64,000 bases of DNA from Sandaracinus amylolyticus (GTDB lineage Bacteria; Myxococcota_A; Polyangia; Polyangiales; Sandaracinaceae): contig NZ_CP011125.1 in assembly GCF_000737325.1 (NCBI RefSeq), positions 992,001 through 1,056,000 on the forward strand. Direction: 5' to 3'. The notes under the pieces were generated by a model. That model was not told the DNA's origin. It did not search any database and saw only the letters and a program-made list of their open reading frames with translations. This document shows positions 30,801-51,549 of the stretch, piece after piece (the stretch's first letter is position 1; each line of letters begins with the position of its first letter). Position numbers and translations under genes: made by a program.

Positions 30801-31375
30801 GCGGCGACTGCGTCGGCTGCGAGGTGCTCGGCTGCGCGGCTGGCGAGCTCTGCTGGGACGGCGCGTGCCGTCCGGATCGCTGCGACGACGCGACGTGCTC
30901 GAGCGCGCAGATGTGCGTCGACGGCGACTGCCGGAGCGCGTGCGGGCCCGGTGATTGCCCGGCGGGCCAGCGCTGCGCGGCGGACGGCACGTGCGAGAGC
31001 GATCCCTGCGCGGGCGTGACCTGCGACGGCGGTCGCGTGTGCGTCGCCGGCGAGTGCCGCATGGACCCGTGCCGCGGTGTGCGCTGCGATCGGGGCGAGG
31101 TCTGCGCGGGCGCGACGGGGTGCATCCCCGATCCGTGCGCGCTCGTGACGTGCCCCGCGGGTCGCTCGTGCGCGGTGAGCACGAGCGGCGTCGCGGAGTG
31201 CGCGCGCGTCGGTGGTGGCGTGGACGCGGGCACCGGCGAGTGGGTGCTCGCGGCGGGCGGCGGCGGCGTGTGCAGCGTGGTCGCGCCGGGCGCGTCGCGT
31301 GGTGGCGCCGTGGTGCTCGCGATGATCGCGCTCGCGCTCGTCGTGGTGCGCCGTCGTCGTGGAGGCGCGCGATGA
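27884..31375 (+). CDS. Large secreted VWA protein with MopE-type repeats and MYXO-CTERM-like tail
   Basis: 1163 residues. Signal peptide (LALASAQ), a ~340-residue Gly-rich beta-helix-like region, a CDGFDNDFDGNVDEG motif, then a von Willebrand A domain with MIDAS VVLDTSSSM (Asp436) and LVTDGAESC. After it come four MopE-type Cys/Asp motifs (CNAMDDDCDGRTDEG and relatives), an EGF-like Cys-rich tract and a C-terminal GGGGVCSVVAPG, hydrophobic helix and RRRRGGAR. That tail matches MYXO-CTERM sorting signals (Cys, membrane span, Arg cluster), so surface anchoring is likely. Overlaps the next gene by 4 bp. Probably a surface adhesin or calcium-binding protein. Confidence 0.9.
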   Translation: MSRVAVALFFFLLSVFPALASAQDLVVNGTTATLGGVRRYRTVRVINNGRIIVPGFDGTDRTNTGNLVLIAESILVDATSSIVARGAGYQPVVCGNGRGPTTAPLSGGRGGCAVLDSGGGGAHFGRGGRGTKDCFVFGSTTSCQFPQEFEESCGALNATATACTETGGTCYNNDGLPSVAGDAYRHSIYEIEFGASGGDKGCRDGFDAASTGGAGGGRIVLVGLTAAGTGTVQIDGTINAAGRRGCGSGNDSGGGGAGGSILIVGDQVQVGATGVVTAAGGLGGDTNSGRGDQPDFADCAGRQAGGTCDDCGGGGGGGIINVLSRSSSLHYGATFDVGGAAGGVCEICRGEAGGGAGELLLDGAYVGEYCDGFDNDFDGNVDEGLGTTSCGLGACARDIAACASGAPVTCAPMVTSDPSCRASDAGARPRIAVVLDTSSSMLLDLRGYPTFGDGSVDRPGIDTDGNGRPDDSRLSLARESLAQVISAYPEIDFALARYHQDQGVERSCQTARWFECEGLIGTYDNPGDNTGTVACNVAIGPSTNVAIRPISTAGDECINYAGTCGPPRRGADVLSGFGTPTRDLVRWLDGRETAFDADTTPGDVCRHARAGRDCEVRASGETPLAGSLQTIEDYVVPIRATDPSTGCRGYAVILVTDGAESCGGDPVAQARRLHDTFGIETYVVAVSVRADEEASLNAIARAGSGNTRMNATFVRNPAELVPAITSILEGSLRTERCNAMDDDCDGRTDEGFALGDACDDGLVGACRGTGATVCAASELAVECAITMPGASPGTESCNAMDDDCDEAIDEGLTCNTECTPTGAEVCNGVDDDCNGLVDEVDPALGTPCGEDEGQCEPGALRCVGGELTCIGGRGPRDEVCNGLDDDCDGMADDLAECPVGSLCLEGSCRRSCDPAMEFPCPVDFVCTMPEGATGNYCVPTACAECEAHERCVDDVCVDPCEGVTCGEGEECRGGDCVGCEVLGCAAGELCWDGACRPDRCDDATCSSAQMCVDGDCRSACGPGDCPAGQRCAADGTCESDPCAGVTCDGGRVCVAGECRMDPCRGVRCDRGEVCAGATGCIPDPCALVTCPAGRSCAVSTSGVAECARVGGGVDAGTGEWVLAAGGGGVCSVVAPGASRGGAVVLAMIALALVVVRRRRGGAR

Positions 31376-32871
31376 GCCGCGGGTGGAGCGTGATCGCGCT
31401 CGCGATGATCGTCGCGGGCTGCGAGGTGGATCCCTACTGCATCGCGTGCCCGGACCCGATCGACGGAGGTGTGAGCGACGCCGCGCGCGACGCGCGCGCC
31501 TCCGACGAGGACGCCGAGGTCCCCGTCGACGCGGGCGAGTGCGTGCCCACCGACGGCGCGGTCGAGCTCTGCAACGAGCTCGACGACGACTGCGACGATC
31601 TCGTCGACGAGGGCTTCGACCTCCAGAGCGATCCGACGAACTGCGGCGAATGTGGCACTCAGTGCCGCTTTCCGAACGCCGAGGGGCAGTGCACGAGCGG
31701 CGCGTGCGCCGTGACCGCGTGCTTCGACGGCTTCGTCGATCTCGACGACGTGCCGGGCTGCGAGTACGCGTGCCCGGTCTTCCCGACGCAGGGCGAGGAG
31801 TGCAACGGCTTCGACGACGACTGCGACGGAGTCGTCGACGAGATGCTCCCCGCGCCGCCGCCCGGTCTGTGCCGCACCACGCCGGGCACGCCGTGCGCGG
31901 GCGTCGTCCCCACGTGCACGACGCGCGAGGGCCGCACCACGTGGTTCTGCGACTACCCCGCGAGCGTCGAGTTCGATCCCGTCGTGCCCAACGGCATCGC
32001 GCTCGAGGAGACGCGCTGCGACGGCGAGGACGGCGACTGCGACGGCCTGCGCGACGAGAGCTTCGCGACGCTCGGCGACGCGTGCGACAACGGCGCGCGC
32101 GGCGCGTGCCGCGACGCCGGCGAGATCGCGTGCGACCCCGCGGACGACTCGCGCACGATCTGCGATCTGAGCGTGCTGCCCGATCCGGTGCCGGGCGCGC
32201 CGCTCGCGGTCGAGCTGTGCAACGGCGTCGACGACGACTGCGACGGGACGATCGACGACAGCGATCCGACCGACCCGGGGCGCGTGCGCGACGACATGGT
32301 GCAGATCACGCGCGGCGCGACGACGTTCTGGATCTATCGCCACGAAGCGTCGCGCCCGGACTCGAGCGCGAGCGCGGCGGGCGCGTCGACCGCGCGTGCG
32401 TGTGGTCGCGGCGGCGTGCTGCCGTGGACGAGCATCGGCTACGACGAAGCGGCCGCGGCGTGCGCGGCGGCGGGACATCGCCTGTGCACCGCGGCGGAGT
32501 GGCGCGCGGCGTGTGAAGGCGCGAGCGGTCGCGACTATCCGTACGGCGACGCGTACGAGGCCGCGACGTGCAACGGCGCGGATCGCGACGCGGTCGCGGG
32601 CGGCGCGATCGACTCGCGGCTCGAGGCGACGGGCGCGCTCGCGATGTGCCTGAGCGAAGAGGGCGTGCTCGACATGTCGGGCAACGCGAAGGAGTGGACC
32701 GCCGATCAGCGCGGCACCGCGAGCGGCGGCGGGCGCATCTTCGTGGTGCGCGGCGGCTCGCACGAGTCGCCCGAGCTCGGGCTGACGTGCACGACCGAGC
32801 TCTCGCGCGCGACGGAGGACACGCTGCTCGGGTCGCTCGGCTTTCGGTGTTGCGACTCGGATGGGCCGTAG
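31372..32871 (+). CDS. Lipoprotein with MopE-type repeats and FGE-sulfatase-like domain
   Basis: 499 residues. Lipobox in LAMIVAGCEVDP, an acidic linker, then five Cys/Asp motifs of the CN-x-x-DDDCD-x-x-(V/I)DE type (putative metal-binding MopE repeats). The C-terminal ~190 residues resemble the formylglycine-generating-enzyme fold: IYRHEASRPD, GHRLCTAAEWRAACEG, DMSGNAKEWTAD, FVVRGGSHES and terminal LGFRCC. Such FGE-like domains are often non-catalytic scaffolds. ATGA overlap with the VWA gene implies coupled synthesis and a joint surface role. Confidence 0.88.
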   Translation: MSRGWSVIALAMIVAGCEVDPYCIACPDPIDGGVSDAARDARASDEDAEVPVDAGECVPTDGAVELCNELDDDCDDLVDEGFDLQSDPTNCGECGTQCRFPNAEGQCTSGACAVTACFDGFVDLDDVPGCEYACPVFPTQGEECNGFDDDCDGVVDEMLPAPPPGLCRTTPGTPCAGVVPTCTTREGRTTWFCDYPASVEFDPVVPNGIALEETRCDGEDGDCDGLRDESFATLGDACDNGARGACRDAGEIACDPADDSRTICDLSVLPDPVPGAPLAVELCNGVDDDCDGTIDDSDPTDPGRVRDDMVQITRGATTFWIYRHEASRPDSSASAAGASTARACGRGGVLPWTSIGYDEAAAACAAAGHRLCTAAEWRAACEGASGRDYPYGDAYEAATCNGADRDAVAGGAIDSRLEATGALAMCLSEEGVLDMSGNAKEWTADQRGTASGGGRIFVVRGGSHESPELGLTCTTELSRATEDTLLGSLGFRCCDSDGP

Positions 32872-32892
32872 TCGAAGAGGCGTCGGCGTGAG

Positions 32893-33076
32893 GCGCGGGG
32901 TGCAGGGTCTGTCGGGCCGGTACTCGCGACTGCTGTTCGATCGCGGTGAGAGCGTCGGGAGGCGGAGGGTCGTTCGCGGGGCGCGCGTTGCGCTGTCCCG
33001 CGAAGCGACCACGTCAGTCTCGACGAGGTGTCTGCGAGCGTCGCTGCGTGGGCCCGCCAGACCCTGCACCCCGCGC
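32893..33076. repeat. Nested palindromic element A (~184 bp)
   Basis: Outer arms of 26 bp at 32893-32918 and 33051-33076 are inverted copies with one mismatch. Inside lies a second inverted pair, GGTCGTTCGCGGG at 32968-32980 and CCCGCGAAGCGACC at 32997-33010. The element has the same length, layout and several shared blocks with element B at 50959-51137. No open frame with coding character is present. It could be a mobile MITE-like unit or a structured RNA; it also lies where a terminator for the 31372 gene would be. Confidence 0.8.
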
Positions 33077-33167
33077 CCGGTACCGCGGTTCTGCCGCCTC
33101 GCTGGATGAGGTCGCGGATGGCTCGCGACCGGTCCGCGCTTCGCCGCGGCCCGGACGCTCGCGAGTA

Positions 33168-33390
33168 GCACCGCGCGACGAAGTCGCGCGTGTGCGCGCT
33201 GCGCGCGGGATTGGAGGAGCGGACGCGCGCGACGCCGTCGCGTGCGTGCGCGCTGCGCGCGGGGATTGGAGGAGCGGACGTGCGCGACGTAGTCGCGGGC
33301 GTGCGCGGTGATGTTGCGGAGGAGCGGGCGTGCGCGGTGATGTGTCGTGGGGAGCGGACGCGCGCGACGTAGTCGCGGGCGTGCGCGGTG
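33168..33390. repeat. Degenerate tandem repeats, ~30-55 bp units
   Basis: Four to five imperfect units each contain GGAGGAGCGG or a near copy (33213, 33268, 33318, about 33349) followed by GCGCGACGTAGTCGCGGGCG or a variant, itself near-palindromic around GCGACGTAGTCGC. Unit length varies 55, 50 and about 30 bp. The array ends just before the stop codon of the minus-strand lipoprotein at 33397. No gene is seen in it. Confidence 0.7.
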
Positions 33391-33396
33391 AGCGCG

Positions 33397-34164
33397 TCAT
33401 GGGAAGCAGATCGATGCGCTGACGCCGAGGAGGGTCGGGCCGGTGCCGAACGAGAGCTCGCGGCACCGGTCCCTCATCGCGCGGTGGAGCTCTCCGCGGC
33501 GGTTCGAGACGATCGCGCGCCAGATCCCTCCGGTGACCGTCGAGATCACGCCGAGCCCGCCGATCGCGAGGCCCAGCGCGACGACGCCGTCGTTCGGAAA
33601 GATCGTCCGCTCCGCGCACGGCGAGAGCACGCAGAACCGCGCGCCACGCAGGCCCTCGTAGAGCGCGAGCCCGAACCCGCCGACGATCCCGATCGGGCCC
33701 GACACCAGCAGCGCCGTCGAGCCCTCGAGCGACTCGGCCTCCCACTCGAATGCGAGCGCTTCGATCTCGGGCGCTGCGCGCATCGCCGGCGCGCCGAGCA
33801 GCGCCGTCGCGGCGGGCGGCGGCATCACCTCGAGCACGGCTTCGCTCTGCGCGATCGTCACCTCACCGCCGGCGTTCGACGCGATGACGTGCTCGAGATC
33901 GCACGGCGTGCGGCGGTCGCCGTGGCTGCAGACGTAGATCGCGTTCAGCCCGCACGAGCGCACCTCGTAGCGCACCGTGTCGCCGCGCCGAGGGCGGCCC
34001 TCCGCCGGCTCGATCATGAAGCCGCGCACGTCCGCGCAGTCTGGAAAGTCGTGCCGCACCGAGCTCCGCACCGCTCGTGGCAGGCGCTCGTAGACGGGCG
34101 GCATCCCCCCGCATCCGGCGGCCAGCATCGTGAGCACCCAGACGGTCGCGAGCATCGTGCGCAT
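33397..34164 (-). CDS. Lipoprotein with two hydrophobic C-terminal segments
   Basis: 255 residues. Lipobox signal (MRTMLATVWVLTMLAAGCGG), then a soluble region with four Cys (DFPDCADVRG, VRSCGLNAIYVCSH, RTPCD) and two hydrophobic Gly-rich segments (LLVSGPIGIVGGFGLAL and DGVVALGLAIGGLGVISTV). The start at 34164 is set by the signal peptide; the open frame continues upstream without signal character. Not recognised as a known family. Confidence 0.8.
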   Translation of the reverse strand: MRTMLATVWVLTMLAAGCGGMPPVYERLPRAVRSSVRHDFPDCADVRGFMIEPAEGRPRRGDTVRYEVRSCGLNAIYVCSHGDRRTPCDLEHVIASNAGGEVTIAQSEAVLEVMPPPAATALLGAPAMRAAPEIEALAFEWEAESLEGSTALLVSGPIGIVGGFGLALYEGLRGARFCVLSPCAERTIFPNDGVVALGLAIGGLGVISTVTGGIWRAIVSNRRGELHRAMRDRCRELSFGTGPTLLGVSASICFP

Positions 34165-34286
34165 GTCGCGGCCGTGAGCACGTCGCGTTCCGCGCGGAGC
34201 TCGGGCGCCCGCGGTGCGGGTGCATCGTGTCGTGCACACGTCGTCGCCCGGACGTGTCGCCGGCTGCACAGTGGGCTGCGATCGGC

Positions 34287-50706: not shown

Positions 50707-50931
50707 ATGGACGGCCGGACCGTGTACCACGTGGAGCCCGAGGACGATCTCTGGCGAGTGAAGCTCGCGGGCGACAGCCAGACCGAGTACGCCGACACGA
50801 AGGAGAGCGCGATCGCGCGCGCGAAGCAGCTCGCCCGACGCGCCCCGCGCGCTCAGGTGGTGATCTTCGACGAGGACGGCCGCGTCGAGCAGGAGATCTA
50901 CTTCGACCCGAGCACCGAGCGGAGCGTGTAG
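50707..50931 (+). CDS. Small DUF2188-like protein
   Basis: 74 residues. VYHVEPEDDLWRVKLAGDSQ, TKESAIARAKQLARRAPRAQ and VVIFDEDGRVEQEIYFD follow the DUF2188 pattern of strand-helix-strand seen in very small bacterial proteins. A GGAGG lies about ten bases before the ATG. Role unknown. Transcribed divergently from the GNAT gene. Confidence 0.85.
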   Translation: MDGRTVYHVEPEDDLWRVKLAGDSQTEYADTKESAIARAKQLARRAPRAQVVIFDEDGRVEQEIYFDPSTERSV

Positions 50932-50958
50932 ATCTCCGCGCGAGGTGAGGCTTCGGTG

Positions 50959-51137
50959 AGGGCGCGGGGCATGGGGCCCCTCGCTAGGCCTCGCGACCGG
51001 CCCGAGGGGAGGCTGAGGCGTCGGGTACCGAGTCGTTCTCGTCCGCGCGCGAAGCGCTCGGACGAGAACCAGGCAGGTGCGTGGCTGCCGTCGGGCGGGT
51101 CGCTGCGGAAGCGCTCGGGCCCCATGCCCCGCGCCCT
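50959..51137. repeat. Nested palindromic element B (~179 bp)
   Basis: Outer arms at 50959-50979 and 51117-51137 are perfect 21-bp inverted copies. Inside, GTTCTCGTCCG at 51035-51045 pairs perfectly with CGGACGAGAAC at 51059-51069. Length, arm position and inner hairpin position match element A at 32893, and blocks such as CTCGCGAC, CGTCGGG, GTCGTTC and GTCGCTGCG occur in the same order. It starts 27 bp after the DUF2188 stop. Confidence 0.82.
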
Positions 51138-51549
51138 GCTGGCGAGGCTTCGGCCGCGCGAGGCGTGAGCGTGACGCGGTGGGTGGCGGGAAAGGCGCGT
51201 GCTCGCTCGAGTCCGCTTCGCGTCCTCGCGCGATCACGCGCGGACCGACTCGCCCTTCGGGCATCGTGGCCGGATGAGACGTTCCGCCGCGCAGGCGACG
51301 AGCTCGACTCTCCGGCGAGCTTGCTACGATCCGCGCCTTCCGGGCGGACCGCCGCGCAGAGATCGAGCGCCTCCCGGTCGGATGCTGGTGAGCGACGCGC
51401 CCAGAGCGCGCCGGAGACCGTGAGCGCGTGCTTCCGCGAGGTCGATACTTGGCGGCAGCGTCTGCGCGCGCACTCCGAACAGACTCTCGGCGGAACCGAG
51501 TCTTCGGGAGCGATCGAGTCTTCTCGAGAGTGATCGCGCGGATCTTGCC
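51138..51549. other. Gene-free stretch
   Basis: No open frame here has coding character. Near 51480-51530 the words GACTCTC, GAGTCTTC and GAGTCTTCTCGAGAG recur three times within 50 bp, ending at a CTTCTCGAGAG palindrome. The rest shows nothing recognisable. Together with element B this makes a ~620-bp gap, unusual for this gene-dense window. Confidence 0.6.

Follow-up and report, generated by a model that had tools for sequence, protein, structure and literature searches.

What holds a long nested palindrome directly behind a gene of Sandaracinus amylolyticus: selection on its fold, mobility as a small repeat, or both? The palindrome is found in a window of 64 kb, which is the whole stretch of DNA analysed here and corresponds to positions 992001-1056000 of a single host contig of 10,327,335 bp; the coordinates below are those of the window unless stated otherwise. 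For strain DSM 53668, the genome description gives a size of 10.33 Mb, a GC content of 72% and one contig (PMC5010890). The original prediction described an element of about 180 bp with a related second element 18 kb away, and it proposed selection on structure or MITE-like mobility.

Architecture of element A and of its sister element B

The nested palindrome predicted at 32893-33076 is confirmed. Its main inverted repeat, identified by an inverted-repeat search and by covariation, has a left arm at 32892-32918 and a right arm at 33051-33077, both on the plus strand. The arms are 27 nt long and 96% complementary, with a single mismatch. The inner hairpin (32967-33011, plus strand) comes from the predicted fold and is kept in the family alignment; its pair, GGTCG-TTCGCGGG / CCCGCGAAGCGACC, is seen in the sequence as well as in the fold. 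The fold has a z-score of -5.67, and none of the shuffled sequences was equally stable. The predicted extent of about 180 bp corresponds to the palindromic half only, whereas the conserved unit measures about 340 bp and carries a tail. From the alignment of family copies, this unit, element A, occupies 32876-33219 on the plus strand, with approximate boundaries at both ends (profile match 32877-33166, E 9e-67). The family signature CCGGTACCGCGGTTCTGCCG lies immediately 3' of the right arm (33077-33096, plus strand), with 19 exact copies here and 24 in G002, a close relative of the same genus. A second conserved hairpin, located beyond the palindrome (33122-33166, plus strand), corresponds to paired alignment columns 278-320 with double changes. 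The tandem-repeat tail (33172-33366, plus strand; tandem-repeat analysis) is made of 55-bp and 29-bp units, which overlap the 3' end of element A at about 33219 and then extend beyond it. At two other loci (L036 and L005), the tandem repeats downstream of the elements resemble the local flank and not the element.

Element A is flanked by the 3' ends of two convergent genes. The upstream gene (31270-32871, plus strand; gene finder and Pfam) encodes FGE-sulfatase and MopE-type metal-binding domains, and its TAG ends 5 bases before the start of the element. The downstream gene (33397-34239, minus strand) was called by the gene finder. No intrinsic terminator, composed of a hairpin and a T run, was recognised at 32700-33450 around element A, and the window with elements A and B gave no match to the curated Rfam covariance models at gathering thresholds.

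Element B (50936-51279, plus strand), delimited by BLAST, family alignment, profile and covariance model, follows the same plan. Its arms (50959-50979 and 51117-51137, plus strand; inverted-repeat search and covariation) are 21 nt long and perfectly complementary. The inverted-repeat search also places an inner hairpin at 51035-51069 (plus strand), with an inner pair of 16 nt formed by 51035-51050 and 51054-51069. The fold z-score is -7.58, again with no shuffled sequence of equal stability. Element B is preceded by a short open frame of 74 aa (50707-50931, plus strand), which is a gene by position only; its TAG ends 5 bases before the element, and a 71-aa part of it has no Pfam match.

A BLAST search with element A does not retrieve element B, and the kinship of the two becomes visible at the profile level. 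Element A matches the B profile with an E-value of 2e-6, the B covariance model matches element A in the window with an E-value of about 1e-4, and the A profile matches B copies with E-values as low as 8e-11. Because these models and profiles cross-match, we consider A and B to be sister families of one superfamily. The second element 18 kb away is thus related, as predicted, but it represents a sister family that BLAST misses. The general plan of the unit of about 340 bp is a short 5' lead, a long inverted repeat with inner hairpins, a second hairpin and, often, a tandem-repeated tail.

Copies, range and turnover in two Sandaracinus genomes

BLAST searches of this genome gave more than 30 clear copies with element A and a separate set of about 20 with element B. 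With the covariance models, at least 36 A and at least 22 B copies were found here (about 58 in a 10.33-Mb genome), together with at least 43 A and at least 21 B copies in G002; these lower bounds were counted from the match lists after reverse-strand shadows and A/B duplicates had been subtracted. The outcome set beforehand as refuting, an absence of further copies and of compensatory changes in the arms, was clearly contradicted: copies run to dozens, and two-sided covariation is strong. Neither model found any copy in three genomes of the same family (G003, G005 and G007). Among 37 relatives searched at the DNA level, only G002 has clear copies, and weak matches in the others (E of about 1e-3 to 1e-5) were not counted as members. 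In a one-genome-per-species collection, the exact A signature occurs elsewhere on three contigs of unrelated organisms; these occurrences were taken as chance and rejected as family members. As far as tested, the superfamily is confined to two Sandaracinus-type genomes. A text search of the Sandaracinus genome paper gave no description of such a repeat (PMC5010890).

Comparison of the two species reveals both shared and unshared sites. Out of 15 A copies of G002, ten could be paired by their flanks with known copies here, and for an eleventh there is a copy nearby. At the sites that correspond to three G002 copies, this genome has short relics (two sites) or a different palindrome directly after the stop codon (one site). 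In the other direction, about a dozen of the copies traced into G002 align through. The site of element A itself holds only a stub in G002, approximately the first 20 bases (GCTTCGGCGTGAAGTGCGG); at other G002 sites only a stub is left or the element is half deleted, and roughly seven sites have no element at all. Deletions that remove half of the palindrome are common. At L018, the element provides the last codons and the stop of a gene whose end in G002 is different and uninterrupted, and this structure favours an insertion in the S. amylolyticus line.

Some further observations were made at individual sites. At L111/L192 of this genome (G000:C1:8935069-8935154), the place after a stop codon that holds an A element in G002 is taken by a palindromic repeat of a third kind (CCACCGCAGAGG...CCTCGGTGG), which is unrelated to A and B and has some ten partial relatives elsewhere in the genome. 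At one genomic site (L003/L097), the A subtype is not the same in the two species, as though replacement or conversion had occurred. Extra 5' pieces of the element, about 20-45 bases long, are located immediately before the full copies at L012 and L008 and at L102 of G002; in L012 and L008, the arm sequence of these pieces is nearly that of the adjoining full copy.

Placement at gene ends and covariation of the arms

Thirty of 47 family-A hits start between -15 and +8 bp from a same-strand stop codon, compared with 2.6% of a random intergenic control, and 34 of the 47 start between -40 and +20 bp (control 5.6%). With the B profile, whose list contains a few A copies, 16 of 34 hits lie in the same -15/+8 bp interval around a same-strand stop. 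Genes were called by a gene finder that relies on codon usage and was trained on the window, and the control consisted of random intergenic positions and strands. The enrichment is strong, yet it carries no calibrated probability, the control being drawn from one window and the copies common to both species being counted twice. About a quarter of the copies have no same-strand stop just upstream, and several other copies adjoin the start of a gene on the opposite strand.

The arms had been described as perfectly maintained, which does not hold: their sequence differs at nearly every locus, with 43 distinct 5' arms across 47 A copies. What persists is their pairing, nearly all pairs being Watson-Crick. 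In an alignment of 16 copies, 98.0% of the arm cells are paired, compared with 83.7% after shuffling; in 13 of the 25 pairs both partners have changed, and one-sided variation is seen in none. The covariation score of these arms is 0.336 against 0.074 for shuffled arms, and none of 500 shuffles scored as high. Since shuffling leaves relatedness in place, a sliding control was added, and the covariation was lost when the partner was shifted by one base. The main arms of family B behave as those of A, with covariation and two-sided changes, except for the outermost pair, and in family A the second hairpin also shows such changes. A helix that is kept through changes on both sides is that of a structured element, either RNA or single-stranded DNA. 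The two-sided covariation supports selection on, or correction of, a folded structure, and to this extent the original proposal of selection on structure was borne out.

Between orthologs of the two species, the arms have diverged by 3.8%, the loop by 8.7% and the 3' module by 8.3%. Eleven of the arm changes are one-sided and five are two-sided, while, by our own estimate, independent changes at the observed rate would produce well under one two-sided change. Slow divergence of the arms and two-sided changes are predicted by purifying selection and by template switching alike. Template switching is a documented process (PMC8604942), and it has been described as keeping hairpins paired (PMC8794818).

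As to the strand that folds, C-A cells outnumber G-T cells in the A arms (19 to 10 overall in 47 copies), an excess that lends no support to a sense RNA. In the inner hairpins, G-T cells of the sense strand are far above C-A cells, in a structure that was predicted for the sense strand and is hence biased; this excess would fit a sense RNA. Because arms and inner helices disagree, we claim no strand. The folding energy is lower on the sense strand in 46 of 47 copies, a difference that is probably driven by composition and was set aside as strand evidence, and inner-loop z-scores compared by strand gave no preference for sense.

Explanations of the repeat and its place among known systems

What has to be explained is a repeat that is dispersed, lies mostly in sense orientation directly behind stop codons, covaries in its arms and is gained or lost between species. 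We give a probability of about one half to a genus-specific, non-autonomous palindromic repeat that is retained at the 3' ends of genes, where it would serve as a structure of the transcript end. Judging from the sequence, the folded form would be what matters, and its most likely role would be that of a 3'-end structure of the upstream transcript, for termination or for protection of the mRNA end. The pairing of the arms is probably kept by purifying selection together with DNA-level copying from arm to arm, that is, template switching; both are invoked to account for frequent double changes with few one-sided intermediates. The repeat would spread non-autonomously. Several points weigh against the transcript-end reading: no T-run terminator was recognised at element A, the arms have more C-A than G-T cells, the inner-loop z-scores show no preference for the sense strand, about a quarter of the copies lack a same-strand stop just upstream, and functionless homogenisation of the arms would yield much of the same covariation.

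That homogenisation could be the whole explanation is a possible, if rather doubtful, alternative: an old repeat, without present function, whose arms are paired only through template switching during replication. The double changes, the near absence, within the main arms, of standard pairs changed on one side alone (the outermost pair of B excepted), the frequent half-palindrome deletions and the documented template switching (PMC8794818, PMC8604942) are all in its favour. Nevertheless, it leaves the strict orientation and the placement at stop codons unexplained. The slower divergence of the arms than of the loop between orthologs also argues against it, although arm copying could lower divergence too. 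Another possible, though rather doubtful, explanation is a mobile element that would insert specifically at the 3' ends of genes, along a route that is undescribed and leaves no duplication, and would recognise a fold instead of a sequence, so that each copy could have its own self-matching arms.

A classical MITE, with terminal inverted repeats, a DDE transposase acting in trans and insertion with target-site duplication, is improbable. The proposed MITE-like mobility is supported only in part, by the dispersal and by a presence that differs between species; the repeat is also non-coding, with an arm length near that of Correia repeats. However, the arms lie inside the unit, at a distance of about 16 bp from its 5' end and of over 100 bp from its 3' end, and a sequence-specific transposase would not be expected to accept arms that vary so freely in sequence. 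The target-site duplications expected at the insertion boundaries were looked for without any excess of direct repeats at the unit ends, shared flank words being no commoner than in mismatched pairs. An 8-bp flank pair at L049 (GTCATGAG) was rejected as a target duplication, as it is not general. Furthermore, many of the apparent absences are deletions that left stubs, and no Y1/RAYT transposase was found in a search for mobiliser genes that covered the Y1 and reverse-transcriptase families.

Copying through RNA by a retron- or group II-like retro-element, in which the tail repeats would be a mark of target priming, seems quite improbable. The structured unit, the sense placement behind genes, the tandem tail, the lack of target-site duplication and 14 reverse-transcriptase matches in the genome are compatible with it. 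Against this, eight of these matches (L182-L189) are near-identical elements of about 2.07 kb, and the two that were tested (L182 and L183) are matched by Rfam models of group II introns; no convincing similarity to A or B was seen near ten reverse-transcriptase loci examined; and the relics retain the 5' end as stubs instead of showing the 5' truncation that target-primed copying produces. A REP/REPtron-type element, which a Y1 (RAYT) transposase would move in the form of single-stranded hairpin DNA, is most unlikely, because, despite a palindrome near gene ends that attracts an IS110-family element as REPs do, Y1 (PF01797) has no match genome-wide while control genomes were positive, and a unit of about 340 bp far exceeds a REP of 20-40 bp.

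REPs serve as targets of IS110-family elements. Here, an IS110-family element (PF02371) of 1746 bp is located inside five A copies (L091-L095; 1037-2782 in L095) at one fixed point of the hairpin, where the insertion site is GGGGTG[CT]CGCGGGCTGC and CT is present at both junctions. The G002 ortholog of L095 (L106) is without this element, and its left end is present in G002 at the same site in the ortholog of L017 (L139). The IS110-family element is a user of the A hairpin and not a demonstrated mover.

Among known repeats, integron attC sites are found near stop codons in a fixed orientation, are palindromes of variable sequence but kept pairing, and form cassette arrays with R boxes. By comparison of descriptions only, A and B copies are likewise stop-proximal, oriented and kept in pairing, but they are scattered. 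REP and BIME palindromes also lie near gene ends; however, REPs are 20-40 bp long with a tagged end and depend on a Y1 transposase (PMC3733652), which was not found here. The Correia (NEMIS) repeats of Neisseria are small, interspersed, non-coding elements with arms of about 24 bp that fold as RNA, but their arms are terminal and fixed in sequence, with TA duplications (PMC2229807), while those of A and B are internal and locus-specific. YPAL (RU-2) of Yersinia is 168 bp long, is not A+T-rich, has internal inverted repeats and no TA ends, is inserted at or next to dyad symmetries, is linked to upstream genes and is present or absent between species (PMC2229807). A and B share the internal inverted repeats and the interspecies presence and absence, as compared by description and not by sequence. 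They differ from YPAL in that its target duplications of 3-26 bp (PMC2229807) have no detectable counterpart, and in a unit that is twice as long, with a second hairpin and a tail. Because the family fails the tested features of MITEs and REPs and behaves like YPAL minus the target duplications, we place it, as a new and genus-limited family, in the known kind of small interspersed palindromic repeats.

The A hairpin is a natural landing site for a member of the IS110 family, whose elements are now known to be guided by an RNA of their own (PMC11208160). With their dozens of copies, filled and empty pairs, and locus-specific self-matching arms, the two complete related genomes provide a natural test set for whether the pairing of long hairpins is kept by selection or by template switching. 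In addition, the family is a documented case of a repeat that is strongly targeted to stop codons or strongly retained there.
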